From contig PLIC01000023.1 in assembly GCA_003139995.1 (NCBI GenBank), positions 1 to 35,051 on the forward strand: a stretch of DNA of 35,051 nt. Reading direction: 5' to 3'. Of this stretch, positions 3,300-27,413 are shown one piece after another. The number at the start of each line of letters is the position of its first letter. Position 1 is the first letter of the stretch. Under the pieces are notes generated by a model. That model had not been told where the DNA came from. It was given only the letters and a program-made list of their open reading frames with translations, and did not search any database. The DNA is from Candidatus Acidiflorens stordalenmirensis. GTDB lineage: Bacteria > Acidobacteriota > Terriglobia > Terriglobales > Acidobacteriaceae. The position numbers and the translations under genes were made by a program.

Positions 3300-4937
3300 C
3301 TAGCGGGCTAAAAATGCTGAATCCGCTGACGCCGGCCCCGTGGTCAGCCGTTTGCGCCAGGCGAAAGGCAGGCGCTGCTTGAGCAGGCTCCATCGGGTGT
3401 CGCGGTAAGGGTCCTGATTGCTGCCGTAGACCGGATGGTAACTGTCGGCCCTCTGGCGCCCCGGTATCTCAATGCCAAAATCGTTCAGTTGCAGGAACTG
3501 CCGCATCTGAAGTTTGTATCGGCCTTCGACGCCAAACAGAAGTTCGAGCAACCTTTCATTCAGCCACACGATATAGCGGAAGCCAAACTCCCAAACGTAG
3601 GTGTATCCCTTGAAAAACTTCCAGTCCGCTTTGGTGGCGCGCCACATGCCGACGACCTCGCGGCGAATCTTCCAACGCACAAAATTGAGTTCCTCCGGGG
3701 ACAATTGCTGGGTGCGCACATTGCTGAAGTAGCCGTCATACCATCGAAAATCGGAGAGATTGGCGATGCGTTCGTCCTTTAACATTTCCTCCCGCAAAGG
3801 AGTCTTGGGATACGGCGTCATGATCTGGTCCATGACACTGGCAATCCTCATTTTCTTGATGAACTGATAGTTCTCGCGAATGCTCTCCGGATCGTCATCC
3901 GGAAGCCCATTGATGATGCCGGCGATGACGATAATGTCTTCTTTCTGCAGGGCGGCCACGCCGCGCTCGATGGTGTCGAGTGTGTTGGGCTTATTCATCG
4001 TCCTCAGGTTCTTGACGGACACATTCTCGATACCCAGAAAGATGGATACGAACCCCGCCTGGGCCATTTTCCTCGGAACGTCGGGCCGGTGGGCGAAACC
4101 AATCGGACTCGCCTGGGTGGTGAAGATCAGGTTCTTCAACTTCAAGCGAATGACTCCGTCGCACAACTGCTCGAAGCGGTCCATATCAAGGGTGATATTG
4201 TCATCGGTGCAAAAAATGTGGCGTGCGCCGCGGCTGTAAGCGTCTTCAATGTCGGCCAGAACGCGGTCCAAGGGGAAGAGACGGAAGGAGCGGCCGTACA
4301 TTTCGCGGATGCTGCAGAAGTTGCAGAGATGCAGGCAGCCGCGCGAGGTCTCGATGACGTCAGCGCGCCGGAAATACATGTGGAATCCATTGGCGAGACG
4401 CTTGTCGCGGGCGGGTATGCGGATCTTGTCTAGGTCTTCGAGCGGCCGCGCCGGGTTGTGGCGGAAGCGGTCTTCTTCTTTGTAAGTAAGCCCGAGGATG
4501 TTTTCCATCCCCTTGCCATCGGCCTCGATACTATTCAGCAGTTCTCCAAAGGCAAAGTCTCCCTCACCACGTACCAGGAAGTCCCAAAAGTTAGCATCCG
4601 GACCGGCGGCGATGTTCTCGGAAAACAACGTGGCATGATAACCGCCGAGCACGGTTCGAATCTGGCTGTCGAACTGCTTGGTCAAATAGGCAAAGCCGAT
4701 GGTGGTGTCATACTGAAAAGTCATGGACGTGAAGCCCACGACGTCCGGCTTGAATTCCCGCAAGACCTGCAAGTAGCGTGGGACGGCCTGTTTGCGCCAA
4801 ACCACCATGTCCGCCACTTTGACGTCGTGGTTATCGATCTGGCCGGCAATCGTTGCCATCGCCACGCTCGGCGGTTCCCATTGCCTGCGCGGGACCCATG
4901 GCGACGTCGCGGGGCTTTGAACCAGCAATGCTCTCAT
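3300..4937 (-). CDS. B12-binding-domain radical SAM enzyme (last gene of block 2)
   Basis: 545 residues. Residues ~1-130 look like a cobalamin-binding Rossmann domain (PDVVGFTSMTF, VLGGYHAT, VRGEGD), though no DxHxxG B12 motif is visible, as in many members of this class. The radical SAM core follows, with its cluster motif SRGCLHLCNFC (Cys 201, 205, 208) and later FLGIENVS and IIAGIINGLPDDDPES. An uncharacterised ~130-residue C-terminal region is rich in aromatic and basic residues. The family (BchE/HpnR-like) performs methylation, cyclisation or ring formation on unactivated carbons; the substrate cannot be read from sequence. Its ATG overlaps the esterase stop codon by four bases (ATGA), showing translational coupling. 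It is convergent with the paralogue pair across a palindromic repeat. Confidence 0.9.
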   Translation of the reverse strand: MRALLVQSPATSPWVPRRQWEPPSVAMATIAGQIDNHDVKVADMVVWRKQAVPRYLQVLREFKPDVVGFTSMTFQYDTTIGFAYLTKQFDSQIRTVLGGYHATLFSENIAAGPDANFWDFLVRGEGDFAFGELLNSIEADGKGMENILGLTYKEEDRFRHNPARPLEDLDKIRIPARDKRLANGFHMYFRRADVIETSRGCLHLCNFCSIREMYGRSFRLFPLDRVLADIEDAYSRGARHIFCTDDNITLDMDRFEQLCDGVIRLKLKNLIFTTQASPIGFAHRPDVPRKMAQAGFVSIFLGIENVSVKNLRTMNKPNTLDTIERGVAALQKEDIIVIAGIINGLPDDDPESIRENYQFIKKMRIASVMDQIMTPYPKTPLREEMLKDERIANLSDFRWYDGYFSNVRTQQLSPEELNFVRWKIRREVVGMWRATKADWKFFKGYTYVWEFGFRYIVWLNERLLELLFGVEGRYKLQMRQFLQLNDFGIEIPGRQRADSYHPVYGSNQDPYRDTRWSLLKQRLPFAWRKRLTTGPASADSAFLAR

Positions 4938-5839
4938 TTGGCCTCAACCTGACTTCGTTCGCCAGCAAGATGAAACTTTAACATCTGTGGCAGAACCGAA
5001 GACCAATATTTCCAGGTGTGCCCGCCCGGCCCAGTCGACCACTCGTGCGGGATGCCGAGTTCCGTTAGCTTTTGGTGCAAGTCACGCATCGTAGTGAAAA
5101 GACGATCGTCCGTTCCACAGGCGAGGAAAAGTCTGGGAACAGGGCCGGGCACGACGATTGTGTGCTTGCCCCGGCCCTGAGAATCGAGTGCCCCGGGCGG
5201 CGGCGATTGCGACGGCCAGAAGCTCCACTGATCATCGACGAGCCCACTTACAATGCTGACGCTGGCGAAGCGGCCGGCATAGCGCCGCCCCACATCCAGC
5301 GACAGATAACCGCCGAAAGAGAAACCGCCGATCGCCCAACGCTGGCGTTCGAAAGGGATGGCGTAGTGGCGTGAGACCGTCCCCGCGACCTCCTCCGCCA
5401 CCAGGGTCAGATAATTGGGGTAGGGAAAGCGGTCCGAATACTGGCGGTAAAAACTGTTGAAGCGAACGTCGGGCAGGATCACGATCGCGGGCCGCACCTC
5501 GCCCCGGCCCAGCATCTCGTCGTACACTTCGTCCACTTTGAGATATTGCAATAGATACTCCGGCCGGTCCCACCAGCCGTGATTCAAGATGAGTACCTCG
5601 GAAGGCGCAACCTTTGTCTTGGGCACCAGGGCCAGGAAGAAGCGGGGCTCGTTCATCTCGTGGGACCAGAAACGAATGCGTTCCACGACGAGGTTGGCGC
5701 GCTCCGAGAGGCGCACGACCTCGATCTGGCCAGGGGACAGCGGGGCCTTTTCAAACGGCTCCTTGTGCATTCGCGAGCAGGCGGCCAGCAGCAACGTTGC
5801 CATCAGTGTTAGTCCCCGCAATCGGCAATGGTTCCTCAC
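4934..5839 (-). CDS. Lipoprotein alpha/beta-hydrolase (esterase D / enterochelin-esterase-like fold)
   Basis: 301 residues. Signal peptide with lipobox LLLAAC (Cys 21), so probably membrane-anchored in the periplasm. The catalytic set of a putative esterase (PF00756-type) is visible: oxyanion region LNHGWW (~85-90), nucleophile elbow GGFSFGG (Ser 174), acid in CGTDDRLF (Asp 244 or 245) and His 274 in GPGGHTWKYW. It begins 10 bases after the ACP stop codon and overlaps the following radical SAM gene, so it belongs to the cluster. Possible jobs are release of the finished chain, removal of an acyl group or transfer to an acceptor; this is inference. It may replace the thioesterase usually present in aryl-polyene clusters. 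Confidence 0.85.
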   Translation of the reverse strand: MRNHCRLRGLTLMATLLLAACSRMHKEPFEKAPLSPGQIEVVRLSERANLVVERIRFWSHEMNEPRFFLALVPKTKVAPSEVLILNHGWWDRPEYLLQYLKVDEVYDEMLGRGEVRPAIVILPDVRFNSFYRQYSDRFPYPNYLTLVAEEVAGTVSRHYAIPFERQRWAIGGFSFGGYLSLDVGRRYAGRFASVSIVSGLVDDQWSFWPSQSPPPGALDSQGRGKHTIVVPGPVPRLFLACGTDDRLFTTMRDLHQKLTELGIPHEWSTGPGGHTWKYWSSVLPQMLKFHLAGERSQVEAK

Positions 5840-5848: not shown

Positions 5849-6154
5849 TCACCGAATTTGCTGTCCGTTACCGGCGGCCACGCCGGCTTTTCGGCTGGCC
5901 AGTTTCTTCCGGATCAGTTCTTCGATCCGCTCCACGGTATCCAAGCTATGCACGTCGATTTCTCGCGGCATGAATTCGACTTCGAAGCGGCTTTCAAGAA
6001 AATCGACGAGGCCGATCATGCCAATCGAGTCGATGATGCCGCCGGTGATGAGGGGCATAGCGTCCTCGAGAGTGGCCCGTTGCGCGCCGAGCAGAAAATT
6101 ATCGGCGATGTACTTCCGGACCTCGCTCTTGATCTCCCCGCTCTTGATCTCCAT
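5849..6154 (-). CDS. Acyl carrier protein (ACP 1)
   Basis: 101 residues. The phosphopantetheine site is DSIG (Ser 43) in GGIIDSIGMIGLVDFLE, followed by typical helix III residues (TVERIEELI). The ACP begins inside the 3' end of the adenylation gene, overlapping it by 56 bases, so the two are almost certainly co-translated and this is the likely partner loaded by that enzyme. The N-terminus contains a tandem EIKSG/EIKSE repeat. The C-terminal ~15 residues (ASRKAGVAAGNGQQIR) extend past the normal ACP fold. This is one of two ACPs in the cluster; the two are not closely similar, which suggests different roles (starter loading versus elongation). Confidence 0.9.
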   Translation of the reverse strand: MEIKSGEIKSEVRKYIADNFLLGAQRATLEDAMPLITGGIIDSIGMIGLVDFLESRFEVEFMPREIDVHSLDTVERIEELIRKKLASRKAGVAAGNGQQIR

Positions 6155-7661
6155 GGTTCAGTCCTTGGTTCAGTTCTGTTACGATTCTGCCTAAAGCCAT
6201 GTAATCGGTCTTGCCCCGGCTTCCCTTGGGTATGGTATTCAGAAATACGATGTGGTCGGGCAACATATACGGAGGCAGTGTCCGCGCACAGTGGGCTTTG
6301 GCTTCGACCAAGGTGACAGCGCCAGCGGAGCGGGCGCGGACAAAAGCAGTTATGACGGTTCCCATCTGCCCATCCTCGGCAGCGACCGCCGCCGCTTCCA
6401 GTATATCTTCTTGGCGGAGGAGCGCGGCTTCGATTTCCCCAAGTTCAATTCGGAAGCCGCGACGTTTTACTTGCCGGTCGAGCCGTCCTAGGAAAAAGTA
6501 GTTGCCGTCAGGCGCGAGCGAAACGCGGTCCCCGGTGCGGTAATACCGTGTGCCCTCCAAAGTGACGAAGGCGCGTTCGGTCTCTCCAGGGCGGTTCCAG
6601 TAGCCACTCATCAGGGAGTCGCCGCCCGCGAGCAGTTCGCCGCTCGACGCCTCCATCGTCACCGTAGCGTAGGGGCAGGGACGGCCAATAGGCAGCGGCT
6701 CGGAGCCATCGAAATCGCGCAGCACGCGATACCACGTGACCACATTGGTCTCGGTGGGGCCAAAGAGGTTCGCGAAAACAGCCTGCGGAATCGCGGCCTG
6801 CAACCGCGCCACGTTTGGACCGGGAAAAACCTCGCCGGCGAAGAGGATGAGGCGCAGGCCGGGATACCCATGCTCCGCCAACCGTCCCTCCTGTAACATG
6901 CCGGCCAGGATAGACGGCACTGAATACCAACAAGTAATGCGGGCCTCGCGCACGAACTGCGCTAAGAAGCGCGGCATCCACACGATATGGCCGGGGACTA
7001 GAACGCAGGTGGCGCCGCATAAGGCCATATTGAAAATGTCAAAGGTGGAAAGATCGAAACCCAGGGGCGACGGACATGCAATGCGGTCCGTTGAACAGAT
7101 CTGAAACTCGCGCGCGGACCATCTTACGAAAGCGCTTACCGCGCGGTGGGAAAGGACGACTCCCTTGGGCCGGCCCGTTGATCCGGAGGTAAACAGAATA
7201 AGAGCCGGGTCGCCGGCATCGACTCTGGGCAGCGAGTCTTCTGCTGTGAGAGCAGTGCTGGTGAGAGCCGTTTGCCAAGCAATGCTCGCGCCCGTCTGGC
7301 GATCGGTGATTCGCGACGGGAAACTGGCGCCTTCGATCACCAACCGCGCCGCGCAGTCCGCCACGGTTGCTTCGATTCGTTCCTTGGGCCATGTAGGATG
7401 GATGGGAACATAGATAGCTCCGGCGAGAAGGGAGGCAAAAATAGAAACGATCGCATCCGTGGTCTTCGGCATCACCAGAGCGATGCGATCCTGCTTTTGA
7501 ACGCCGTGTTCGACGAAGCGCAGGGCCAGCGCCGCGGCTTGCTCGAATAACTCGCGGAACGAAGTTACCCGATTTTCTTCGACAATAGCCGGAGCATCGG
7601 GCGTGGCCGCTGCCGTGTGCCGAAGCCATTCGCAGAGCACGTCGCTTTCAGGCTCGGGCAA
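6099..7661 (-). CDS. Stand-alone adenylation enzyme (aminoacyl/acyl-AMP ligase)
   Basis: 520 residues, a complete ANL-superfamily ligase. Motifs in order: A3 LFTSGSTGRPKGV; A4 GFDLSTFDIF, with the Asp that in amino-acid-activating domains contacts the alpha-amino group; A5 LFGPTETN; A7 YRTGD; A8 GRLDRQVKRRGFRIELGEIE; and the catalytic Lys region GSRGKTDY near the C-terminus. The A4 and A5 forms resemble stand-alone enzymes that load an amino acid on a carrier protein (DltA-, or prolyl-AMP-ligase-like) more than fatty-acid or aryl-acid ligases, but the substrate cannot be fixed by eye. It is followed by, and overlaps, ACP 1. In an aryl-polyene-type pathway this position is taken by the starter ligase. 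The C-terminus ends in a low-complexity tail (GDQERGDQERG) created by the repeat that also encodes the ACP N-terminus. Confidence 0.88.
   Translation of the reverse strand: MPEPESDVLCEWLRHTAAATPDAPAIVEENRVTSFRELFEQAAALALRFVEHGVQKQDRIALVMPKTTDAIVSIFASLLAGAIYVPIHPTWPKERIEATVADCAARLVIEGASFPSRITDRQTGASIAWQTALTSTALTAEDSLPRVDAGDPALILFTSGSTGRPKGVVLSHRAVSAFVRWSAREFQICSTDRIACPSPLGFDLSTFDIFNMALCGATCVLVPGHIVWMPRFLAQFVREARITCWYSVPSILAGMLQEGRLAEHGYPGLRLILFAGEVFPGPNVARLQAAIPQAVFANLFGPTETNVVTWYRVLRDFDGSEPLPIGRPCPYATVTMEASSGELLAGGDSLMSGYWNRPGETERAFVTLEGTRYYRTGDRVSLAPDGNYFFLGRLDRQVKRRGFRIELGEIEAALLRQEDILEAAAVAAEDGQMGTVITAFVRARSAGAVTLVEAKAHCARTLPPYMLPDHIVFLNTIPKGSRGKTDYMALGRIVTELNQGLNHGDQERGDQERGPEVHRR
6122..6151 (-). 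repeat. 15-bp tandem duplication inside a gene overlap
   Basis: GAGATCAAGAGCGGG is followed directly by GAGATCAAGAGCGAG on the minus strand. In the ligase frame it gives GDQERGDQERG, and in the ACP frame EIKSGEIKSE. A second short direct repeat (TGGTTCAG twice, with neighbouring bases) lies just upstream, within 6152-6175. Confidence 0.85.
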
Positions 7662-8646
7662 GCGTCACCCCCCAGGTGAAACCGATCCCCGCGGAAGCGA
7701 ACAGCAACAATTGCCCGGGACGAATTCGGCCCTCGCGCCGCATATGCACATAATTGATGACGAGATCACTGGCAAATGTGTGGCCATACTCCGCCATGGG
7801 AGTTGGCGGCAGGCCGCCATCGGGCAGTCCCACCATCCTGCGGAAACCCTCGCGGTCGCGGTCGCTGATGTTGGAGTAGATGAAATGATCAACATCGTTC
7901 AAGTTGAGGGAAGATGCCGCCAGGACTTTTTGCATCAGCCGGAACAGGTTGAGATAGTAGATCGGCATCACTTCGTTTTCAATGCATACAGCATCGACCT
8001 TAATCTCAAGGTGGCCGTTGGCCATGACCAGGGCAATGGCGTTGTGCAGATGGCCGAGCGTCATGGCTTCGACGCCCAGCAGCAAAGGGCCTTCCGTGCC
8101 TTGCCGGCGCAGGATAACGGCACTCGCGGCGTCGCCTTGCACGGTAATTGGAAGCAGTGAGCGGTTGCCGTGAGGCGCGGTGTCGCCTGTCACCAGCAGC
8201 GCGGTCTGAATGCTTTCATCGGTGCTCATCCAACCGAGCGCGGTCTTGATTGCGAGGTGAAGCGCTCCACAGCCGCCAGCTTTGAAACTCAAATTCAGGG
8301 AAGTTTCAGCCCTTAATTCGGCGCTGAGTTTGTGGGCAAACGAGAGATACTGCGAGTTATCTCCGGGAAAGGTGCTGTAATCGAGGATGAGATCGATATC
8401 CTGCGCCGTAATCCCAGCTTCCGCGATTGCCGTGGAAGCGGCTTCAAGAACTAAGTCATAGGGTTGCTTGTCGCCGCAGACGCGGACGCGACTTAGTCCG
8501 AGGCCTTCCACGGCCTTTCGTCTCGCCTGCGGGCCCAGTGGAGCGAGCGTTGTTTCCACCCGAGTTCGTTCGCGCTCCAAGACCGTTTCCACGGTCTCAA
8601 CGCCGGGCGGAACGGCATACGCCGCCGATGCAATTCGCACATTCAT
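7648..8646 (-). CDS. KAS III-like (FabH-fold) condensing or acyl-transfer enzyme with altered catalytic residues
   Basis: 332 residues from ATG 8646 (GGAG upstream; the stop codon of the preceding gene ends two bases before, so the longer open frame is not the start). FabH fold throughout: N-terminal RIASAAYAVPPG, nucleophile Cys 126 in FKAGGCGALHLA, and C-terminal PGQLLLFASAGIGFTWG, the normal KAS III ending. The other two catalytic positions differ: where FabH has the His of PHQAN there is YSNIS (Ser 258), and where FabH has the Asn of GNTSAAS there is GHTFASD (His 289). Such changes are found in KAS III relatives that act as acyltransferases or unusual condensing enzymes in secondary metabolism. 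It may prime the KS pair from the aminoacyl- or acyl-ACP. Function inferred; fold certain. Confidence 0.88.
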   Translation of the reverse strand: MNVRIASAAYAVPPGVETVETVLERERTRVETTLAPLGPQARRKAVEGLGLSRVRVCGDKQPYDLVLEAASTAIAEAGITAQDIDLILDYSTFPGDNSQYLSFAHKLSAELRAETSLNLSFKAGGCGALHLAIKTALGWMSTDESIQTALLVTGDTAPHGNRSLLPITVQGDAASAVILRRQGTEGPLLLGVEAMTLGHLHNAIALVMANGHLEIKVDAVCIENEVMPIYYLNLFRLMQKVLAASSLNLNDVDHFIYSNISDRDREGFRRMVGLPDGGLPPTPMAEYGHTFASDLVINYVHMRREGRIRPGQLLLFASAGIGFTWGVTLARA

Positions 8647-8648
8647 GT

Positions 8649-9737
8649 TCAAGGTAACTCCAGCAGAAGAGCTGCGAACCCACTGTCGCCGGACGTTCCT
8701 AACGATGTTCCTAACAACAGAGCCAGCCCGCTGCTGGGCCGACTGCTTAAGGCCAGGATCAAGTGGAGAAGAGCGCCCGTATCGGCCAGACCCGCAGCAA
8801 CGGCCTGCGGCGGGACGACGGCGGCGTTCTGGCCGGCAATCTCGCGAGCCAGGCCGATTGTAGGACTGGTGGCGCAAGGCGCGCCATTTCCGGCACAGAT
8901 GGTGAGGCTGGGGACGCATCCGCAGAGCATCTGGCGAGCGATCTCCACCGGCTGTCCGCCTGCCACCCAGCAGCCGGAGCGGAAACGGGCATAGGAGTGG
9001 GCTTCGGATCTCACTTCGCAGCGGCCCGCCGCTTCCAGCACCAGCGCGGTCACACCTTCGCTGGGCACGAAACCGTCGGCTACCGGCAAGGATTCCGAGT
9101 TATAGCAGGCCGGCGACAGTAGGTCTGCTGCCTCGTACCATTCGTAGACGGCGCGCGTAAGCGTGTCACCGGCGAGGACAATGGCCAAGTCTGCCTGCCC
9201 GTGGCGGAGCAGGGAAGCGGCTTGGATCAGCGCGCTCTCGCCCGCAAAGCCCTTGCTGCCGACCGTGATATTAGGCCCTCGCAGGTCGTGAAACAAAGCC
9301 ACGTGACTGGCCGGAGCGTTGGCGAGCGTCTCCGGGAAGGTACTAGGATCGGTCCCGGACCAACCATTTGCGGCAGCGCTTTGGTAGAAGGCTTCTGTGA
9401 GTTCAACACAGCCGAAGCTGGTAGCGAAGACTACTGCAACCCGCGATCGGTCCACCTGGCTTAGGTCGATCCCAGCATCTTTAATCGCCAGGGAAGAAGC
9501 CACCAAGGCCCACGCCGACAGACGATCCAGACGTCTGGTCTTCAGGCCCGGCACCACGTCTGCGGGGCGAAACGGCTTCACGAGAAACGCTCGCCGCAGC
9601 CCGGCGGTCTTCCATGCGGTGATGGCGCTGGGTTCCAACGGACACTGTGCGGTCAGTTCGGGCGGGATCAGTCCGGCGAGCGGCCCATAAGGACTCACGG
9701 AACCGATCCCGGTGATGGTGGGCAACGTTGGAGTCAT
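8649..9737 (-). CDS. KS-beta / chain-length-factor-like protein (no catalytic residues)
   Basis: 362 residues, about 50 shorter than a typical KAS II. It aligns with the KS encoded next to it (ITGIGSVSPYG; LRGPNITVGSKGFAGESAL), but the nucleophile Cys is Gly 163, the first His (AHGTGT) has become AGNGAP, and the Lys...GH motif is lost (VPPQAVAAGLADTG). A KS-fold protein without the triad, encoded directly after an intact KS, is the hallmark of the chain-length factor in type II polyketide and aryl-polyene systems. It overlaps the KS gene by four bases (ATGA), as expected for an obligate heterodimer. The loss of all three residues and the short length make it more degraded than classical CLFs, which usually replace only the Cys. 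Confidence 0.85.
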   Translation of the reverse strand: MTPTLPTITGIGSVSPYGPLAGLIPPELTAQCPLEPSAITAWKTAGLRRAFLVKPFRPADVVPGLKTRRLDRLSAWALVASSLAIKDAGIDLSQVDRSRVAVVFATSFGCVELTEAFYQSAAANGWSGTDPSTFPETLANAPASHVALFHDLRGPNITVGSKGFAGESALIQAASLLRHGQADLAIVLAGDTLTRAVYEWYEAADLLSPACYNSESLPVADGFVPSEGVTALVLEAAGRCEVRSEAHSYARFRSGCWVAGGQPVEIARQMLCGCVPSLTICAGNGAPCATSPTIGLAREIAGQNAAVVPPQAVAAGLADTGALLHLILALSSRPSSGLALLLGTSLGTSGDSGFAALLLELP

Positions 9738-10954
9738 GATCGGATATTCCCGAATATGAGCGCCGTGTTGCTGCCGCCAAAGCCTGCCGAAACCGACATG
9801 GCCAGCGGCAGCGGCTGGTGTCGAACTTCTCCGCGCAGCCAGTCCACGCGCGGGCTCTCGATGGGATCGGTCAGTCGCAGAGTCGGAAATAGCGCGCCGC
9901 GGCGAACGGCCGTTATCGTGATGGCTGCCTCCAAGGCGCCGGCTGCCCCCAGACAGTGTCCGAAATACGACTTTGTCGAAGATACGGGAACTGGTCGGCT
10001 GCGTCCGCGGAAGGCGGTCTCGTATGCCTTGACCTCGGCAATATCGTTCAGCGGCGTGCCCGTGCCGTGGGCATTCACATAGCCGATCTCATCGCAGTCG
10101 ACCTCCGCCATTTCCATGGCGCGGCGCATGCAATCGGCCAAGCCGTTTCCCTGTTGCTGCGGCGCGGTGGGATGAAACGCATCGTTGGTCATGGCCCATC
10201 CACGCAGCACCACTAGAACTTTGGCATTACGCGCCGCAGCCCCGGCGAGCGTTTCGAGCACGAGCACGGCAGATCCTTCGCCCAGGTTCAGCCCCTTGCG
10301 CTTCTGGTCAAAGGGCCGGCAGGGATCTGGGTCCAACGCCTGCAGAGAGTTGAACCCGCTCAGCGTGAACGGGCACAGCGCGTCACTGCCTCCTGCCAGG
10401 ATCATGGGCGCGATTTCGTCAAGCAGCATGTTGGCGGCGAGCGCGATCGCCATCGCTCCGGAAGCGCAAGCCACGGAGACGGCACAGCGCGGTCCGCGAA
10501 GGCCCAAATGCTCACCCACGGCGTCGGCCACGCGCGCCACCGGATAGGACGCGGCCCGCGAGAGACCGCCGCGCCGATACCAAGCGGCCGGATCATGAGC
10601 GATTCCGGGGTCGATCTCGGTCAAGCCCGCGACTGTGCTGGCCATCACGACGCCGCTCTCCCGGAAAGAAGAGTTCTCGCAATCGAAATCCGCTACTGCG
10701 TCTCGAGCGGCCAACGCCGCAAGTCGATCGGTACGGGAATGCCGGGAGGTGAAACCCTCCGCCGGATGCGGCAATTCATAAGCCTGGACTTGGACCTGGG
10801 CAGTCGTTCCTGCGAAACCGGGATAGAGATCGTTCGTGGGCGCGAGGCAACACTTGCCCGACAACATGCCTGCCTGCAGGCAGTCCAGCCCGATGCCATA
10901 GGGGCTAATAACGCCGACACCAGTAACGACGATGGTTTTCTGGATATCAGTCAC
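9734..10954 (-). CDS. Beta-ketoacyl-ACP synthase II (KS-alpha)
   Basis: 406 residues from GTG 10954 (MTDIQKTIVVTGVGVISPYG, the usual KAS II start); an upstream TTG at 10978 would add eight residues with no gain. The GTG overlaps the stop codon of the acyltransferase gene. The catalytic set is intact: Cys 163 in SVACASG, His 296 in NAHGTGTPLND, and Lys 328 with His 333 in STKSYFGHCLGAAG; the C-terminal SAGFGGSNTA motif is also present. It performs decarboxylative malonyl-ACP extension, most likely as a heterodimer with the CLF-like protein downstream. It is the only fully intact elongating KS in the cluster, so it should carry out all rounds of chain extension. Confidence 0.93.
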   Translation of the reverse strand: MTDIQKTIVVTGVGVISPYGIGLDCLQAGMLSGKCCLAPTNDLYPGFAGTTAQVQVQAYELPHPAEGFTSRHSRTDRLAALAARDAVADFDCENSSFRESGVVMASTVAGLTEIDPGIAHDPAAWYRRGGLSRAASYPVARVADAVGEHLGLRGPRCAVSVACASGAMAIALAANMLLDEIAPMILAGGSDALCPFTLSGFNSLQALDPDPCRPFDQKRKGLNLGEGSAVLVLETLAGAAARNAKVLVVLRGWAMTNDAFHPTAPQQQGNGLADCMRRAMEMAEVDCDEIGYVNAHGTGTPLNDIAEVKAYETAFRGRSRPVPVSSTKSYFGHCLGAAGALEAAITITAVRRGALFPTLRLTDPIESPRVDWLRGEVRHQPLPLAMSVSAGFGGSNTALIFGNIRS

Positions 10955-13330: not shown

Positions 13331-13358
13331 GGGGGAACTTACTCATGGAGTGTATGTG

Positions 13359-13625: not shown

Positions 13626-13641
13626 GATGTTTATTTGTGGC

Positions 13642-13650
13642 AGTATAGCA
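13642..13650 (-). promoter_or_regulatory. Candidate extended -10 promoter for block 2
   Basis: On the minus strand TGCTATACT has the TGn extension and TATACT (5 of 6 to consensus). It lies 16 bases upstream of the ACP 2 start codon. No convincing -35 is present. If used, transcription would start about 7-10 bases before the ATG. Confidence 0.4.
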
Positions 13651-13888: not shown

Positions 13889-13938
13889 CCAGCTTGTAAA
13901 TCGGCCAAAACCATCATTGGCCAGTTTGGAAGGAAAAT

Positions 13939-14349: not shown

Positions 14350-14380
14350 CGGAACACTATCCCTACTGCCCGCTATAAGC

Positions 14381-16238: not shown

Positions 16239-16246
16239 ATGTTCAG

Positions 16247-19200: not shown

Positions 19201-19309
19201 CCGTCAGCGGCAAAAGCACAAAACCAGAAAGCAGCAGAAGAGCGGCAATTCGCCCCAAACCTGCCACTTGAGAGAAGAACAGCGTTGCCGAGCCAAGCGA
19301 CGATTTCAT
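16247..19309 (-). CDS. Large putative outer-membrane protein: N-terminal unknown domain, LolA-like middle, C-terminal beta-barrel
   Basis: 1020 residues. An N-terminal signal (~1-40: [21 protein letters not shown]) directs export. Residues ~45-400 form an alpha/beta domain with a TIM-barrel-like look ([33 protein letters not shown]). Residues ~410-640 resemble outer-membrane lipoprotein-sorting (LolA/LolB-like) repeats ([47 protein letters not shown]). Residues ~650-1020 are rich in alternating hydrophobic/aromatic strands and end in [10 protein letters not shown], consistent with a beta-barrel. I know no named family for the combination. It lies between the Tes-like radical SAM gene and fabG with short gaps, so it is part of the operon and a candidate for surface placement or export of the product. 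Confidence 0.75.
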
Positions 19310-19344
19310 GAATTCAAATCCGATAACTTAAGAATTAGGTAAAA

Positions 19345-20916: not shown

Positions 20917-20952
20917 CGTAAATTTTTCATCGCGTTGGTTTTGGTTGCCTCA

Positions 20953-20958
20953 AGTATA
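20953..20958 (-). promoter_or_regulatory. Possible -10 element before the Tes-like radical SAM gene
   Basis: TATACT on the minus strand within an AT-rich patch about 40 bases upstream of ATG 20916. No -35 or TGn extension is visible. The gap in the gene chain (20917-21132) makes an internal promoter plausible. Confidence 0.2.
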
Positions 20959-21030
20959 TACGAACATTTGCAGGCGACCCGTGCCAGATGGGATTCAGCG
21001 GTCCTCTCGTGTGAGAACACCCAATGTGCT

Positions 21031-21114
21031 CGCGTAGGAACGGCCGCCCTCGGCCGTCCAAGCCGAGCGCAGCTCGGCGGCTGCGTGTGGTTACAGCAAA
21101 TCTGGATTCGCTAT
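21031..21114. repeat. Intergenic palindromic element, copy B
   Basis: Inverted copy of the element at 3206-3281, with a hairpin GCCGAGCGCAGCTCGGC at 21062-21078 and compensating changes relative to copy A (AAGC...GCTT there, GAGC...GCTC here). It fills the 216-base gap between the MMPL exporter and the Tes-like gene, where no gene is seen. Confidence 0.7.
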
Positions 21115-21132
21115 AAGCACTCCTACAAGCCC

Positions 21133-23697
21133 TCAATCCCAATCCACCGTCGCTTGTATCGTCTGGCGCTGCGCTCTTTTCTCTCCCCCCAAGAGAATGA
21201 CAGCGGGAACCAGCCAGAGGCCGCCAGCCAATGCCAGAGCGACGCCCAATGAAGTTACGAGACCCATCTCGGCAAGCGGCGCGAAACTGGAGGCCATGAG
21301 CGCTCCGAACCCGACGATCGTAGTCAGGTTCGACTGAATCAGCGCCGCGCCCGAAGCCTTCGCGATCGCGAGAATCCCGTAGCGCTCGTTTTCCAGGTAA
21401 CGGCGGACTAAGTGGATACCATTATCGATCCCAATGCCGATAATGAGCGGGATCGCTGTAATGGACATGAAACTGAAGTGGTGTCCCACCAAGTGCAATA
21501 GCCCGAAAGTTACGATGATGGCGAATATGATCGGCATCAACACGACCAGCGACACGCGGAGGTTGCGGAAACAGAGATAGACGATCAGGACGATGGCAGC
21601 CGCCGTCCACACTAACGCCCTGCGGCTGTCGTGAAGAACTCGGCTCTGCATGTCGCGGTTGATCTTGTCGAAAGAGAACTCCACGAACGGACCAAACTGA
21701 TTCCGCCAGGACTCGATGACAGTCTCCGGAACCACCTGGATAGCATTGGGGTCCGTGGCATAAAAGGCGATGGCCGCGACGTAACTGCCGTCACTCGTCT
21801 TGCGAATGCTGTTGTCGAGCAACCCGGCAGGCAGAAACTCGGCGGCCTTTTCCAGGGTAATAGGTTCATAGCCGTGTCCTAGGGTTCGCAGCCGCTCGAT
21901 AAAAGGCTGCTGCGGCCCTATTCGAAAACCATTCTCGCGGAGCGAATCCTCAAGGGCGCGGGCGGATGCCGCCAAATTGATGCCCGTCAGCGCGCCGGCC
22001 CGTTCGTTCTGCGTGCGGGCTGAGGGCAGCAGGTCCGTGGGAGAGAAAATGGATTTGAGGACGCCGCGCTGCCGATAGGCTTCTAGACCCGCCGTCAGCT
22101 CTTCGGCCCTGCGCAGGACTTCCTCCTGGCCACCCGCGATCAAGAGCACGTTGGGGCTGCCCTCAATGCCGAACTTTGCGGAAAGGCGGTTCTGCGCGGC
22201 AATGGCTGGGTTGTCGGCGCCACCATTGATCTCGAAGCGCCCTCCAATCCTGATGGCAGGCAGAACCAGTAATGACACCAGAAATATGGCCAACGAAAAG
22301 GCAGCGACGAGGCGGGCGTGCTGGCCCACAAAATCGAGAGATTTCCGCGCCAGCAAAGGAAGGAAGCGGAAGGTAATGGCCTCCGGCGCGCGCGGTTTCG
22401 AGAACCGCCACCAGAGCTGCATCAGCGCGGGAACGGTCAACAGAGTGTGGAACATCATCATGAACATTCCGACGGTGAGGATGAACCCGAACTCCGCCAG
22501 TGCCTTGAAGCTGGAGGTCGCCAGCGCCGTGGTGGATGTTGCCGCCGTTAGTATGCAGAAGAAAACGCTAACTCCGGTGGTTTCGAAGGTGCGAAACACG
22601 GCCTCGTTAAGCGTCCCGCCCTTTGCCCATTCCTGCGGCACCCTATTAAAGAAATGTACGACTTGGTCGTCCCCCAGTCCCGCGAGAATTGCAATAAAAG
22701 ACAGGCTGATGAGATTTACTTCCCCAGGATAGAAACTCGCCACGCCGGTAGTCCATAGAATGCCCAGGCCGGTGGGCAGCAGCGACAAAAGCAGCAGCGG
22801 AATTCTCGGATAGATCAGCAGGCACAACACGAGATTGCCGGCGATCGAAATCAGAGAAATTCGGCGGATATTCCTTTCGATGAACTTATGGTCTTCCTGC
22901 GCGTAAACGTAAGCGCCGGCCGCCGTGGCCCGTACGCCGGAGTCCCGGAAGGCGGGTTCTGCGCTTATCGACTGGATATGCTCCCGCGTCCATTGCACGA
23001 CTTGCTCGGCGAACTTATAGTCCACGGCCGACTGGCGAGGCTCGGCAATGATGAGCAGTGCCTTGTGGTCCTTGCTGAAGAATCGGTTCCCAGATCCCCA
23101 GGTCAGGTCGAAACTGGAGAATTGCGAGAACCCCCGGCTGTTGCGCGCCGCCACTTCCATGAGGCCAAGAGGGTCGGCGACGAAGTAATTAGTTCCTAGA
23201 GTGGAAAACGGCGTGACCAGTTCAGTTGCGGCGCGGCGAACGGTTTTGTGAATCTGTTGCGGATACAGGCGCCGTTTAAGATCTTCCGTTTGCTCTGGCA
23301 GGACGAATGACGGAAAGTTCCAGGTAAAGAACCGCACAATGTTGAGCAGTTCTTCTTCCTGCAAGCCGCAGCGCGCCTGCTTGAACAGCCCGCTGGACAG
23401 CATGTCGGCGGTGAGACGGTCGGCCATTTCCTCCATCTCGCCGGTGGTGTCCGTTCCTCCCTCCGGGGCCTCGATCAGCACAAAGAGCTGGTTGCCATAG
23501 CCCAGTTCTTTGCCGATCTGGCTCGCGGCCCGCCATTGCGGGTCGCGACTGCCAAACAGGTCTGTGAGGTCGGTACCTGTGCGCAGGTTGTGGATGTTGG
23601 CATATAAAAGCAAGGTCAGGACCAGGCTCAAGGCTGTCACCAACCCCGGATGACCTACGACCAAGCGCGCCACCAAGCGCATGAAACGGACCATCAT
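21133..23697 (-). CDS. MMPL/HpnN-like RND superfamily exporter
   Basis: 854 residues. Architecture of a lipid-exporting RND protein: TM1 at ~17-35, a large periplasmic loop to ~275, TM2-6 at ~280-440, TM7 at ~470-490, a second loop to ~690 and TM8-12 to ~835. Proton-relay-type motifs sit at GLGDDQVVHFFNR (Asp 343/344) and GIGIDNGIHLVRRY (Asp 758). The family exports hopanoids, mycolates, polyenes and other lipids, and in aryl-polyene clusters the MMPL gene moves the pigment to the outer membrane. The start overlaps the methyltransferase stop codon by four bases (ATGA). A short Arg-rich C-terminus follows the last membrane segment. Confidence 0.9.
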   Translation of the reverse strand: MMVRFMRLVARLVVGHPGLVTALSLVLTLLLYANIHNLRTGTDLTDLFGSRDPQWRAASQIGKELGYGNQLFVLIEAPEGGTDTTGEMEEMADRLTADMLSSGLFKQARCGLQEEELLNIVRFFTWNFPSFVLPEQTEDLKRRLYPQQIHKTVRRAATELVTPFSTLGTNYFVADPLGLMEVAARNSRGFSQFSSFDLTWGSGNRFFSKDHKALLIIAEPRQSAVDYKFAEQVVQWTREHIQSISAEPAFRDSGVRATAAGAYVYAQEDHKFIERNIRRISLISIAGNLVLCLLIYPRIPLLLLSLLPTGLGILWTTGVASFYPGEVNLISLSFIAILAGLGDDQVVHFFNRVPQEWAKGGTLNEAVFRTFETTGVSVFFCILTAATSTTALATSSFKALAEFGFILTVGMFMMMFHTLLTVPALMQLWWRFSKPRAPEAITFRFLPLLARKSLDFVGQHARLVAAFSLAIFLVSLLVLPAIRIGGRFEINGGADNPAIAAQNRLSAKFGIEGSPNVLLIAGGQEEVLRRAEELTAGLEAYRQRGVLKSIFSPTDLLPSARTQNERAGALTGINLAASARALEDSLRENGFRIGPQQPFIERLRTLGHGYEPITLEKAAEFLPAGLLDNSIRKTSDGSYVAAIAFYATDPNAIQVVPETVIESWRNQFGPFVEFSFDKINRDMQSRVLHDSRRALVWTAAAIVLIVYLCFRNLRVSLVVLMPIIFAIIVTFGLLHLVGHHFSFMSITAIPLIIGIGIDNGIHLVRRYLENERYGILAIAKASGAALIQSNLTTIVGFGALMASSFAPLAEMGLVTSLGVALALAGGLWLVPAVILLGGEKRAQRQTIQATVDWD

Positions 23698-24824
23698 GGC
23701 GCGGCCTCGGCTTCATTCAACGGTTTCTTCGCAACGAATTTCTTCGCGACGAATAGGATGTGGGCCAGAGGCAAACGGTTTCGGAAGCGGCGCTCTTCAA
23801 CCTGCATGCCGGCGTTCTCCAGCACACTATGGTACTCGACGGCCGGAAGCATCAAGGGCCGGACGCCAGCGCTCCCGCAAGCGAATATTAGCCGGTCGAA
23901 AGCCATGGTGATTCTCGACCACAGGCCGCATTCGCGATCATGGACCCGGAAAATCAGTACTCCCTCGGGCGCGAGCACCGAGCAGCACCCTTTCAGCAAG
24001 GCCAGTTGCTCATCGGCGGGCAGATACTGCAAGACATCCAGAATCAAAATCAAACCGGCGGGCGGAAGGTCGAAATGACGCACATCCGCAACGCTCAGGT
24101 CTGCGTTCAGCGCGCTCAGAGCCTCGCGAGCGACTGCGATCCGATGCGCATCCAAGTCGCAACCGACCAAGCGCCGGCTGCTGTCGCCGAAAGCCGCAAA
24201 ACCGAGGGCCATGCCGTAGCCGCAGCCGAGATCCACTACCGTTCCCGATCCCAGGTTTTCGGCAGCAAGCAAGCCGAAGATCCGATCAAGCCGCAGTTTC
24301 CATCGGACGAACCCACGGTCGCCCCACGCGCATCGGGCAAACATCCGCTTCACAAAACGCACGCGGTCCCGCAGTTCCCGGTTGGCGGCAGCCTTCCGAT
24401 GAAGATGGATCACAACCGCGGTAATCGCCGCCCCAACGCCGCCAACGAGTATCCCCAGCGGTACGCTGCCAATCACCCAGGCTAGAAGCTCTTCTTTCAA
24501 GTGCAAGTGCGCGCCAGCCAGGGCGGACAGGTTCAATGGCCGGAATGAGCCGCCGCGAAGAAAATAGCCGAGTTCCACGGAGGACACGACAATCACGGGC
24601 TGGAGCAGCGGATTGTTGATGAAAGTACCGGCCACGGTTAGCGGCTTGTTAAGCCTGAAGAGCAAAGCCAGACCCACCGCCGCCAGGGTTTGGAATCCGT
24701 AGATGGGTACGATGCCGATGAAGATTCCCAAAAATACGGCGGCGGCAGCTCGACCAGGGTCAAGCCTCTCCTTCAGCAAGGCGGTTACGAACTGCCGCGC
24801 GCGAGTCTGAAATCTTCGGATCAC
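23694..24824 (-). CDS. DUF2062-SAM methyltransferase fusion protein
   Basis: 376 residues. Residues ~1-150 form a DUF2062 membrane domain (AAAAVFLGIFIGIVPIYGFQ; FINNPLLQPVIVV; two or three membrane helices). Residues ~160-360 form a class I methyltransferase with motif I VVDLGCGYGMA (197-206), an acidic motif II region (VGCDLD) and LILDVLQYLPADEQ. The C-terminus is a repetitive AKKFVAKKPLNE tail. The methyl acceptor is unknown; aryl-polyene clusters carry a methyltransferase that acts on the aryl head, but none of them is known to me to be fused to DUF2062. It is 55 bases downstream of the FabZ-like gene and overlaps the exporter gene. The membrane anchor suggests action on a lipid-linked intermediate. 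Confidence 0.85.
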   Translation of the reverse strand: MIRRFQTRARQFVTALLKERLDPGRAAAAVFLGIFIGIVPIYGFQTLAAVGLALLFRLNKPLTVAGTFINNPLLQPVIVVSSVELGYFLRGGSFRPLNLSALAGAHLHLKEELLAWVIGSVPLGILVGGVGAAITAVVIHLHRKAAANRELRDRVRFVKRMFARCAWGDRGFVRWKLRLDRIFGLLAAENLGSGTVVDLGCGYGMALGFAAFGDSSRRLVGCDLDAHRIAVAREALSALNADLSVADVRHFDLPPAGLILILDVLQYLPADEQLALLKGCCSVLAPEGVLIFRVHDRECGLWSRITMAFDRLIFACGSAGVRPLMLPAVEYHSVLENAGMQVEERRFRNRLPLAHILFVAKKFVAKKPLNEAEAAP

Positions 24825-24879: not shown

Positions 24880-25317
24880 TCAGGCCGACACCACCGACAA
24901 CTCGCCGCTGGCTACGATCTCCGCGTCCACCCACACCGTGCCGCTGATGTAAGCCATCTTCCCGGCGTCGGTCAGCTTCCTGGTTTCAATGCGCAGTTCC
25001 TGCCCCGGACTTACTGGCTTGAAAAACTTGAAGCGGTTTACGGCCGCAAGCAGGGCCAGTCCTTCCCCAGTTCTGGCAACGCCCTGCGGGGCCGCCGATC
25101 CCAGCATCACTCCCGCGGTCTGGGCCACCGCTTCAATCAGAAAAACGCCCGGCAGAATGGGCTTGGCGGGAAAATGCCCGGCAAAAACCGGATCTGCCGG
25201 ATCGACGAACTTCACGGCAACACAGCGAACTCCCGGCTCCAGTTCTTCGACCCGGTCGATCCACAAGAACGGAGGGCGATGAGGAATCATCGTCTCGATT
25301 TCGCTGCGCTCGATCAC
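24880..25317 (-). CDS. FabZ-like 3-hydroxyacyl-ACP dehydratase (hotdog fold)
   Basis: 145 residues from GTG 25317, which overlaps the stop codon of the LolA-like gene (GTGA). The much longer open frame upstream is an out-of-frame reading of that gene. FabZ signatures: IETMIPHRPPFLWIDRV, GHFPAKPILPGV (catalytic His 48) and LIEAVAQTAG (Glu 62). It dehydrates 3-hydroxyacyl-ACP to the trans-2-enoyl form. With no enoyl reductase in the cluster, repeated KS-KR-DH rounds would leave double bonds, giving a conjugated polyene (inference). Aryl-polyene clusters usually have two dehydratases; only this one is visible. Confidence 0.9.
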   Translation of the reverse strand: MIERSEIETMIPHRPPFLWIDRVEELEPGVRCVAVKFVDPADPVFAGHFPAKPILPGVFLIEAVAQTAGVMLGSAAPQGVARTGEGLALLAAVNRFKFFKPVSPGQELRIETRKLTDAGKMAYISGTVWVDAEIVASGELSVVSA

Positions 25318-25943
25318 TTTGGTCTGTACACCTCGAACGTGCCCGCCGGAATCTTCGGGTTCACAGAGCTGACGTCGATGGCGAAGACACTGTTCACACC
25401 GCTCTTGCCGTCGACCTCCAGCGAGCGGAGCAGGAAGTCCCGTTTGTTCATCTTCACCACAACGTAATTTAGGCGGCGGCGAAATGCGTCCGATCGGGGG
25501 ACGAGCTTCATTTCGTAACCCCGGCTGTCCTCCTGCGCGGTGATGGTGAAATTCTTCTTCAGGTTTGCGATGGAGTTCTCCCGGCTGAAGTAGGACTGTG
25601 CGCGGCGAACGCTGCTTCCGACTTCGAGAACCTCCGTCTTGCCGCCCATCGTAACGTTGAGGTAGTTCTCGTTGAAGCGAATGCGCATCGGGTTCGGTTC
25701 GAAGTATTCCAACGTGAATCGCTTGGTGCCCTCGGCGCAAAACTTGCCGCGGAGCACCATGGGCTTCACCATCAGGCTGGAGGTGCGGGTTTCGATGATG
25801 GTTCCGCAGCCACTCGTGTATTTCTTCTGCGCTTGCTGAACGCCGTCCCAAATGCGCGTCAGCAGATCGTCGGACTGCGCAGCCAGCATTCCCGGGAAAA
25901 TCAAAAACACCAGGAGCCAGCATGGTCTAGACCGCAAGATCAC
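25314..25943 (-). CDS. LolA-like outer-membrane lipoprotein carrier family protein
   Basis: 209 residues from GTG 25943, one base after the glycosyltransferase stop codon; this start puts a signal peptide first (MILRSRPCWLLVFLIF...LAAQ). The mature protein has the LolA pattern: an amphipathic helix (LLTRIWDGVQQAQKKY), then antiparallel strands (MVLRGKFCAEGTKRFTLEYF, RIRFNENYLNVTMG, RRLNYVVVKMN, LRSLEVDGKSG). LolA-family proteins shuttle hydrophobic cargo across the periplasm; aryl-polyene clusters contain a dedicated LolA homologue beside the MMPL exporter. Here it should carry the cluster product. Confidence 0.85.
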   Translation of the reverse strand: MILRSRPCWLLVFLIFPGMLAAQSDDLLTRIWDGVQQAQKKYTSGCGTIIETRTSSLMVKPMVLRGKFCAEGTKRFTLEYFEPNPMRIRFNENYLNVTMGGKTEVLEVGSSVRRAQSYFSRENSIANLKKNFTITAQEDSRGYEMKLVPRSDAFRRRLNYVVVKMNKRDFLLRSLEVDGKSGVNSVFAIDVSSVNPKIPAGTFEVYRPK

Positions 25944-25944
25944 G

Positions 25945-26619
25945 TCACGCTCCCAGAAAGCGAAATGCGAGCGACCAAAGGCAGATACGCACCGTGTCAC
26001 GCACCGGCTTCATCTTGGAGCGCGCCTGGCCATCGTCGTAGACCGTACGGACGGGAGCGTGCGCGATGGTGCAGCCTGACCGGGCCATCTTGATCAGGAC
26101 CTCCATCTCGAATTCGTAGCACCGGCTCCGCAGTTCGGTCCCACAAAGTTTGTCCAAGCGGAATAGCCGGAATCCGCTCTGGCTGTCCCGGATTTTGCAG
26201 CCGACGAGCGCCGAGGCCAGCCGGCTGCCAACGGTGTTCGAGAAATAGCGAGCGCGAGGCATGAGGGCACGATCGAAAACGCGCGCGCCAATGACCAGGT
26301 CCGCTCCAGTCTCTTCGGCGACGCGAAGCATGACCGGAATGTCTTCCGGCAGATGCTGACCGTCGCCATCGAGAGTGATCGCGTGTGTGAAGTTGTGGGC
26401 GCGCGCGAAAGCGATGCCGGTGCGCAGGGCCGAGGCCTTGCCGCAATTGCTGGACGATTGCAAACATGTCGCGCCGGCAACCCGGGCAACTTCCGCCGTC
26501 CCATCGCTGGAGCCATCGTCGATCACCACCACCTCTGCAACATGCGGTCTGGCCCCCGCAACCACTTTGGCGATGTAAGGGGCTTCGTTGAATGCCGGAA
26601 TTAGCGCGCAGGTTCGCAT
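25945..26619 (-). CDS. Family 2 glycosyltransferase (polyprenyl-phosphate sugar transferase-like)
   Basis: 224 residues. GT-A fold with IPAFNEAPYI at the start, VVVIDDGSSDGT (Asp 34/35), LDGDGQHLPED (Asp 84, 86) and DSQSGFRLF, the pattern of DPM1/polyprenyl-phosphate mannosyltransferase-like enzymes. No C-terminal membrane anchor. It overlaps the deacetylase gene by 19 bases and precedes the LolA-like gene by one base. Glycosyltransferase modules occur in aryl-polyene clusters, so a sugar may be attached to the product or its lipid anchor. Confidence 0.9.
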   Translation of the reverse strand: MRTCALIPAFNEAPYIAKVVAGARPHVAEVVVIDDGSSDGTAEVARVAGATCLQSSSNCGKASALRTGIAFARAHNFTHAITLDGDGQHLPEDIPVMLRVAEETGADLVIGARVFDRALMPRARYFSNTVGSRLASALVGCKIRDSQSGFRLFRLDKLCGTELRSRCYEFEMEVLIKMARSGCTIAHAPVRTVYDDGQARSKMKPVRDTVRICLWSLAFRFLGA

Positions 26620-27413
26620 GAGGCAGGTTCCAGTGTTCTGTCGCTGACATCCTCCCGTGCACCGGCCAGGACGAATTCGAATCCCCGCTCCCGGAGCTCA
26701 TCGATGACCCGAGGCAAGGCTTCAAGCATGACATCCGCTCCTGCCGGCAAATGATCGTGCAGCAGGATGATGTCCCCGCTAGCCGCTTTGCCCAAGATGC
26801 GCTGGGCAAGAACACTGGAATTCGCAGTGAGTGTATCACGCGTCCGAATGCTCCAAGAAACATACTCGAGTCCCGCGTCCTTGAGATAGGGCCCTAAAAG
26901 GGGATGACGCAAGCCAACCGGCGAGCGGAAAAAATGCGGCCGGAAACCACAGCAGCGGCGCACACTCTCCGTGCCGCGCTCGATCTCGGCCCGCAGACAT
27001 CCAGGCATGAGAAAACAAAACAAAGCGTGGTGCGACCAAGTGTGGTTTGCTACCAGGTGCCCTTCCGCCCAGGCGCGGCGCACGATGTCCGGATACTGGT
27101 CCGCGCGCTTCCCCACCACAAAGAACGTTGCCTTCACACCTTTCTCCCGAAGTAAGTCGAGTAACTTGGGCGTGTCTACGGGGTCGGGGCCGTCGTCGAA
27201 AGTCAGGGCCACACAACCCTCGCCATCCACCCGCGAGCGGTTGGCGACCAGCCATTGGTTGCGCGGATGAAACAGCAGGTACAGTATGAGCAGCGTTCCG
27301 GCGGCATAAATTAAGGCCACGAGAAGGAACCGAGACAGGGTAAAAGGATACAGCAGAACCAATGAGGCGTTAGTCACAACAAACAACAAGAAAAAGATCG
27401 CAGGCCTCGCCAT
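26601..27413 (-). CDS. Membrane-anchored polysaccharide deacetylase (NodB/CE4-like)
   Basis: 270 residues. Two N-terminal membrane segments (~5-22 and 28-48) are followed by a NodB homology domain: TFDDGPD (Asp 73/74), HTWSHH (His 124, 128; metal ligands), FRSPVGLRHP, and LLHDH near the C-terminus. It removes N-acetyl (or similar) groups from a sugar; the target is unknown. It is the first gene of block 1 and overlaps the glycosyltransferase gene, so the pair probably works on one glycan or glycolipid. Upstream lies a palindromic repeat (27433-27554), and I see no clear promoter for the operon. Confidence 0.88.
   Translation of the reverse strand: MARPAIFFLLFVVTNASLVLLYPFTLSRFLLVALIYAAGTLLILYLLFHPRNQWLVANRSRVDGEGCVALTFDDGPDPVDTPKLLDLLREKGVKATFFVVGKRADQYPDIVRRAWAEGHLVANHTWSHHALFCFLMPGCLRAEIERGTESVRRCCGFRPHFFRSPVGLRHPLLGPYLKDAGLEYVSWSIRTRDTLTANSSVLAQRILGKAASGDIILLHDHLPAGADVMLEALPRVIDELRERGFEFVLAGAREDVSDRTLEPASCEPAR

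Follow-up and report, generated by a model that had tools for sequence, protein, structure and literature searches.

A conserved two-operon cluster of Acidobacteriota that combines an aryl-polyene-type polyketide core with a proline-type ligase and a Tes-like radical SAM enzyme

Type II fatty acid synthase (FASII) genes have been known since 2009 to cluster with genes of radical S-adenosylmethionine (SAM) enzymes in Kuenenia and Desulfotalea (PMC2649909; all papers given by PubMed Central (PMC) number are cited from excerpts), therefore this combination alone is not new. Bacterial homologues of the tetraether synthase Tes have been discussed as candidates for the synthesis of branched glycerol dialkyl glycerol tetraethers (brGDGT; PMC8941075, PMC10087280, PMC11868695), and their activity is described in the excerpts as unconfirmed or as needing follow-up (PMC11868695, PMC8941075). 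Here we analyse a gene cluster of Candidatus Acidiflorens stordalenmirensis (Acidobacteriota). The whole stretch analysed, 35,051 nucleotides and called the window in the following, is contig C143 of the source assembly (5.49 Mb, 92.8% complete). Annotation with Pfam and NCBIfam placed all cluster genes on the minus strand, from 27413 down to 3300, including every gene named in a first-pass annotation that a model had made from the sequence. In our reading, the two operons of the cluster make an outer-membrane lipid that belongs with the aryl polyenes and flexirubins and is tailored by new chemistry; to this reading we assign a probability of about 0.5.

The first-pass annotation had described an aryl-polyene-type type II core, radical SAM tailoring genes and an export set. 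Indeed, a ketosynthase (KS), a cysteine-less partner resembling a chain length factor (CLF), a ketoreductase (KR), a dehydratase and acyl carrier proteins (ACPs) were found in one set, along with two B12-binding and one Tes-like radical SAM enzyme, an acyltransferase, a LolA-like protein (below its model cut-off) and an MMPL exporter. What it had overlooked is the amino-acid (proline-like) type of the ligase, the rewired character of the Tes-like protein and a BcrA/BadF-type activase pair next to the cluster in three relatives.

Recurrence of the gene set in two operons

Recurrence in several Acidobacteriota genomes had been set beforehand as a check, and we were able to find the set in four other Acidobacteria metagenome-assembled genomes (MAGs), palsa_286 (G396), bog_321 (G397), DBS1-1.bin82 (G398) and bog_373 (G399), at 52-93% protein identity and arranged as two operons. 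Operon A runs in the order polysaccharide deacetylase, family 2 glycosyltransferase (GT2), LolA-like protein, FabZ-type dehydratase, methyltransferase, MMPL exporter, Tes-like enzyme, a 1020-residue putative outer-membrane protein (OMP) and KR, and operon B in the order PHP-type metallohydrolase, ACP1, B12-radical SAM enzyme 2 (rSAM2), LpxL-like acyltransferase, KS, CLF, beta-ketoacyl-ACP synthase III (KAS III)-like enzyme, ligase, ACP2 and B12-radical SAM enzyme 1 (rSAM1). Genes of operon B were present in all four relatives in whole-genome searches, 19 of the 20 tested genes have counterparts in three or all four of them, and operon A was found in six copies including that of the window, one of them without the OMP.

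The gene order of the window is kept in G396, split over two contigs, with a contig end inside the OMP gene. The PHP gene adjoins operon A rather than operon B in G397, rSAM1 lies on a separate contig in G398, and both operons stand divergently on one 50-kb contig in G399. Whole-genome searches, which were used for rSAM1 and the OMP, found neither rSAM1 in G397 nor the OMP in G398, and gaps in these MAGs may account for some of these absences. Operon A occurs once more in G399, on contig C22 (L240 and L241), along with a further Tes-like, OMP and rSAM1 gene; this might be a true duplication or a mixture of strains.

The ratio of non-synonymous to synonymous substitution rates (dN/dS) between the window and G396, the closest of the four relatives, ranged from 0.106 (rSAM1) to 0.387 (ACP2) over 20 genes, the values of KS, ligase, KR and OMP being based on partial reads, and between the window and G399 from 0.080 to 0.584 (ACP2) in 19 genes, whose synonymous sites are close to saturated; a recount with reads cut at the first stop left the ranges unchanged. 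The gene set is a real, conserved pathway.

The proline-type ligase and the Tes-like enzyme

The starter ligase named in the first-pass annotation is present (6099-7661, minus strand), and its type has to be corrected: it is a stand-alone amino-acid adenylation enzyme with a proline-type pocket. It matches the amino-acid adenylation model TIGR01733 with 337.8 bits, above the cut-off of 317.4, and in a full-length search of the PDB a non-ribosomal peptide synthetase with two adenylation domains ranks first. The specificity segment gave 52 matches, led by 6o6e (103.1 bits) and 7thn (61.5 bits; the next reached 59.5), both of which are L-proline--[L-prolyl-carrier protein] ligases. Seven of the nine covered pocket positions are identical to those of 6o6e and two differ, the positions being named by what we take to be the GrsA numbering. 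The pocket motifs are common to all five genomes, with one F/Y difference beside a pocket position. ACP2 (5849-6154, minus strand; NF052616 72 bits, below cut-off; DS[IL]GM in 5/5) overlaps the ligase gene. Since the pocket is of the proline type, its motifs are kept in 5/5 genomes and the carrier gene overlaps that of the ligase, L-proline or a close analogue is, as judged from sequence, the likely primer.

The Tes-like protein (19345-20916, minus strand) reached 338.4 bits with the model NF045702, under the cut-off of 450, and 271 bits across 474 residues with the Tes of M. jannaschii (7tol). An AlphaFold model built from 57 sequences (predicted local distance difference test, pLDDT, 81.4; predicted template-modelling score, pTM, 0.86) aligned with 7tom/7tol at template-modelling (TM) scores of 0.77-0.81, and the other 48 structure matches listed had a query TM of at most 0.34. 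The predicted Tes fold is therefore full-length, and the radical SAM motif CxxxCxxC is present. By analogy with Tes, the protein may join lipid tails through C-C bonds.

A Tes alignment was scanned against about 85,000 species genomes, and the best 80 of 572 confirmed candidate loci were taken. Four of these encode proteins with 70-87% identity to the window protein, and the other 76 reach at most 41%. A quick tree of 81 homologues groups the five Tes-like proteins in a single clade (SH-aLRT 100), whose stem is 2.61 changes per column long. All three cysteines of CPxxCGxC are missing in 5/5 clade members and present in 75 of the 76 other listed homologues; C43, C94 and C359 are gained in 5/5 members, and occur in 0, 8 and 0% of the other listed homologues, respectively. 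Retained throughout are C17, C20, C41, C104, C108, C111, C343, C463 and C478, and the C-terminal Tes motifs are kept in 5/5. The second copy of G399 has the same cysteine pattern. Like the characterised Tes/GDGT-MAS enzymes (7tol, 7tom), the window clade has the full-length fold, CxxxCxxC, an N-terminal CPxC and a C-terminal RC...PFC.YN; unlike them, it has exchanged CPxxCGxC for the three new cysteines in all six copies. We read the clade as a rewired subfamily, in which one metal site would have been moved or lost.

Tes-family matches at E<=1e-20 were found in 172 of 297 genomes of the phylum, and the source genome itself (G000) holds two further ones. Since lipid tails are coupled by Tes in archaea and brGDGT synthesis has been proposed for its bacterial homologues (excerpts of PMC8941075, PMC10087280), the cluster might be a factory for membrane-spanning lipids, in which the Tes-like enzyme couples ordinary phospholipid tails and the type II polyketide synthase supplies a special chain or head. 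We consider this improbable, as the clade forms a long separate branch in the quick tree and its gene lies in an operon with export genes, and as the two further matches of the source genome could fill that role.

Among the 76 loci outside the clade, KS matches were seen in the fetched flanks of two (L169 and L180). In L180, from an unplaced bacterium (G400), positions 8712-21455 hold in a row LpxL, Tes, LolA, a radical SAM/SPASM protein, a B12-radical SAM enzyme, an ATP-grasp protein, a hydrolase, a second B12-radical SAM enzyme, a TPR protein and a KS. Another contig of G400 (L256-L258) begins with a similar KS and shows CLF-, rSAM2-, KR-, ACP-, dehydratase- and MMPL-like matches, some of them weak; as a continuation of L180 it is an unproven candidate. 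The Tes of L180 keeps CPxxCGxC, and its placement in the tree is unsure (long branch). Since a canonical Tes stands there beside LpxL, LolA, B12-radical SAM and KS genes, the pairing apparently arose twice; lipid clusters of this sort would have taken up a Tes-family gene on at least two occasions.

These observations bear on a possible if somewhat unlikely alternative, namely that the cluster makes an ordinary aryl-polyene-type pigment lipid, on which the Tes-like and both B12-radical SAM enzymes perform peripheral changes (methylation, desaturation or head-group modification) and no chain coupling. Backbone and export genes would fit the aryl-polyene pattern, and so would the loss of a cysteine motif from the Tes-like protein; the full-length Tes fold, the C-terminal Tes motifs in 5/5 and the distant bacterium G400, where a similar gene set adjoins a canonical Tes, argue against it.

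Chain building, export and neighbouring genes

All window genes in this section up to rSAM1 lie on the minus strand. The KS (9734-10978; TIGR03150 288.6 bits, below the cut-off of 493.75) keeps the cysteine of ACASG in 5/5 genomes and AHGTGT in all four that cover that site, and the CLF-like protein (8649-9737; PF00109, N-terminal domain only) has lost the active-site cysteine in 5/5. The KAS III-like enzyme (7648-8646; PF08541; FabH structures at about 50 bits) retains the cysteine and has other residues at the FabH His and Asn positions; a start at 8919 was rejected in favour of one near 8646. The KR of the FabG family (15486-16286) gave 276 bits with TIGR01830, below the cut-off of 297.75, and has YSASK, YAASK, YSAAK or YAAAK in 5/5. 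The dehydratase (24880-25308; PRK00006 122.3 bits, above the cut-off of 113; 137-145 residues in relatives) is of the FabZ type; a 347-residue open reading frame (ORF) taken as 'FabA' was rejected, being FabZ only from about 25308, with an N-terminal stretch in the wrong frame. ACP1 (13359-13625; PF00550) carries E[IL]DSID in 5/5, so that both ACPs have the DS motif in all genomes, and the LpxL-like acyltransferase (10947-11855; PF03279 67 bits) has HxxxxE in 5/5. A separate enoyl reductase was not found in the gene set. As the first-pass annotation had stated, no ammonia lyase, second dehydratase (the cluster has one FabZ) or ApeK-like thioesterase was identified among the annotated cluster genes. 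The window also encodes a protein of the esterase family (4934-5839; PF00756 60 bits), which looks like a lipoprotein by eye. Among the contigs fetched from the relatives it was seen only in G396, a distribution that may be due to MAG gaps.

Head-group and transfer functions are suggested by the NodB-like polysaccharide deacetylase (26601-27413; PF01522 107 bits; TFDDG and HTWSH in 5/5), which is the first gene of operon A, by the GT2 (25945-26619; PF00535 80.2 bits; 70-85% identity in relatives), which the first-pass annotation had missed, and by a fusion of a DUF2062 membrane domain with a SAM methyltransferase (23694-24824; PF09835, PF13649). The MMPL/HpnN-like exporter of the RND type (21133-23697) matches PF03176 with 111 bits and the HpnN model with 200 bits, below cut-off; the LolA-like periplasmic carrier (25314-26000) has no Pfam match and reaches 47.9 bits with NCBIfam LolA2_flexi (E 1e-12, cut-off 125). 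The secreted-looking OMP (16247-19309) has weak C-terminal DUF5686 and LolA_like matches, both below the Pfam cut-off, and is probably located in the outer membrane. The PHP-type protein (14381-15511) has a weak PHP_C match, below cut-off, and its candidate metal residues are invariant in five aligned proteins where covered.

A search of 396 genomes of the phylum gave OMP homologues at E<=1e-10 in 137, and 20 stretches were fetched around 18 of the best matches. Four of these loci (G367, G379, G325, G125) are aryl-polyene-like, with KS, KR, ACP, MMPL and at least one of GT2, LpxL and LolA. Two others, G072 (L099 and L100) and G320 (L101 and L102), hold the OMP with KS, CLF, LpxL, GT2 and B12-radical SAM-like genes and no Tes-like match; in G072, Pfam confirmed the B12 and radical SAM domains. 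Eight of the remaining 12 show the OMP alone. The G072 locus also holds a 2-hydroxyglutaryl-CoA dehydratase-like gene.

The two B12-radical SAM enzymes are rSAM2 (11852-13330; PF02310 and PF04055; CxxxCxxC in 5/5) and rSAM1 (3300-4937), for which BchE is the best model, far below cut-off, and which is 80-93% identical in G396, G398 and G399. They bear on the ladderane-like ring lipid that the first-pass annotation had offered as an option. Like the window, Kuenenia clusters combine FASII with radical SAM genes and encode a methyltransferase and a protein resembling polysaccharide deacetylases; they also hold pfam01593-type oxidoreductases (excerpts of PMC2649909), and a flavin amine-oxidoreductase family gene of this type (PF01593 126 bits) lies in the window at 33193-34803, minus strand. 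That gene is separated from the cluster by about 5.8 kb, does not belong to the conserved set and has no counterpart on the relatives' contigs; no PF01593 gene was seen among the cluster genes, and the ligase is of the amino-acid type. Because both B12-radical SAM enzymes score far below the cut-off of rSAM_ladder_B12 (TIGR04072; 98.9 and 77.6 bits versus 360), the ladderane option is left without specific support, and we hold it to be very improbable.

A BcrA/BadF-DUF2229 activase (TIGR00241 194 bits, above cut-off) and a partner ORF, which has no Pfam or NCBIfam match and is labelled 'HgdB' by eye only, lie beside operon A or the PHP gene in G396 (L238), G398 (L216) and both copies of G399 (23799-29059 on C308; L214, L215 and L217). 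In G000 (C87, 6.8 kb) and G397 the pair is on contigs apart from the cluster; it was therefore rejected as a core part and kept as a neighbour. Possible roles of the pair are delivery of low-potential electrons or reduction of the chain. An acyl-CoA dehydrogenase-like gene adjoins the cluster in four of six copies (G397, G398 and both of G399) and is missing from the window, the best match in its own genome being 42% identical and on another contig; as a prolyl dehydrogenase it is unsupported, with at best 26 bits (one of two tested) against a cut-off of 650 in the RedW model. A fourth B12-radical SAM gene stands beside it in G399 (C308, 30924-32597, between the operons) and G398 (C127, 16183-17646).

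Comparisons of flanking genes covered the fetched contigs of the four relatives. Beyond the coordinates of the first-pass annotation, a plus-strand tandem pair encodes secreted-looking proteins of 173 residues (2057-2578; no Pfam match) and 184 residues (2625-3179), with homologues beside the cluster in three relatives, those of the former in G396 and on C22 of G399 and that of the latter in G397 (L120). The flanking TolC, GNAT and acetyl-CoA synthetase genes did not recur there, apart from weak matches of the synthetase to the ligase, and neither did the minus-strand ORFs 33193-34803 and 31391-33400, the latter of which encodes an apolipoprotein N-acyltransferase (LNT_N) and is likewise no part of the conserved set. 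Three further plus-strand ORFs among the queries are probably not genes. A small secreted-looking ORF (13939-14349, plus strand) opposite the gap between PHP and ACP1 has no Pfam match and no counterpart on these contigs.

Proposed pathway and comparison with known systems

Our proposal, for which the aryl-polyene pathway of PMC8253772 served as template, builds on a conserved and recurrent gene set, the families of its enzymes, a Tes fold with altered cysteines and a proline-type pocket. The ligase would load an amino acid, most likely L-proline, onto ACP2, after which malonyl units carried by ACP1 would be added by the KAS III-like enzyme and KS-CLF. An unsaturated chain is predicted to result from KR and FabZ, because a separate enoyl reductase was not found in the set. 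LpxL might then transfer the chain to a lipid carrier, and an aminosugar-type head may be attached to this carrier by GT2 and the deacetylase. Chain or head may be altered by the DUF2062 methyltransferase and both B12-radical SAM enzymes. The Tes-like enzyme would link two chains, or two positions of one chain, by a C-C bond close to the starter end, and MMPL, LolA and the OMP would move the lipid to the outer membrane. On our best reading, the product is a proline-primed polyene glycolipid that is methylated, probably C-C coupled by radical enzymes, and exported. In a bolder and quite doubtful version, a Tes-family enzyme with rebuilt metal sites couples the chains of a proline-primed polyene lipid that has a pyrrolidine or pyrrole head, and two or more bacterial lineages would have recruited such coupling separately.

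Several points weigh against the two-operon lipid pathway as we read it. Every reaction, the location and the product named here are predictions from the genes, and most NCBIfam matches of the cluster proteins score below the model cut-offs. No KS or CLF was seen around 33 fetched Tes loci (the better-scoring class of the phylum, some stretches being short), therefore the usual job of the family lies elsewhere. Since the cysteine motif of the characterised enzyme is missing in the Tes-like protein, its chemistry may differ. A clear prolyl dehydrogenase of the RedW/PltE type is lacking from the cluster. The activase pair of three relatives could reduce the chain, so that a polyene is not certain. 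Searches of the PDB with the LolA and PHP profiles found no solved relative, and an AlphaFold attempt on the OMP from a four-sequence alignment gave a pLDDT of 38.7 and was used for no claim.

If the bolder version is true, this would be the first type II polyketide lipid with C-C coupling of the tetraether-synthase type. Mss is reportedly one bacterial tail-coupling enzyme. The present locus places a Tes-like gene in a defined conserved operon with a likely acyl supplier and exporter, therefore its substrate can be guessed and tested, and it hints that the widespread aryl-polyene lipids include a branch that starts from an amino acid. The first-pass annotation knew of no described system with this combination. 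As to FASII with radical SAM genes, such clusters had already been described; as to the set as a whole, or a Tes-like enzyme with a proline-type ligase, we found no published description in the open PMC literature, in searches not all aimed at it.

With the aryl polyene (APE) pathway of E. coli CFT073 and Xenorhabdus, as given in excerpts of PMC8253772, the window set shares KS-CLF, KR, dehydratase and two ACPs as well as an acyltransferase in an ApeD-like role, a methyltransferase, a glycosyltransferase, a LolA-like protein and an RND/MMPL exporter. It differs in using an amino-acid ligase where the APE pathway uses an aryl acyl-ACP synthetase, in having one dehydratase and no identified ApeK-like thioesterase, and in adding two B12-radical SAM enzymes, the Tes-like enzyme, PHP, deacetylase and 1020-residue proteins (PMC8253772). 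The flexirubin pathway is similar in KR (235 bits with FlxB, cut-off 340) and LolA (47.9 bits with LolA2, cut-off 125), both below cut-off, and unlike the window in that no ammonia lyase is among the annotated cluster genes of the latter. To our knowledge, the radical SAM set is absent from flexirubin clusters. The Kuenenia and Desulfotalea clusters likewise combine FASII with radical SAM genes (one with a B12 domain), a methyltransferase and a deacetylase-like gene (excerpts of PMC2649909), whereas the window set falls below the ladder B12-radical SAM model, has no desaturase-like gene inside and contains the Tes-like enzyme and the amino-acid ligase. As in the prolyl-carrier systems of 6o6e and 7thn, a stand-alone ligase stands next to a carrier protein, whereas the partner prolyl-carrier dehydrogenase of that module has no clear counterpart in the window cluster. 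What is new with respect to the aryl-polyene and flexirubin systems is the amino-acid (proline-type) ligase, the two B12-radical SAM enzymes and the rewired Tes-like enzyme.

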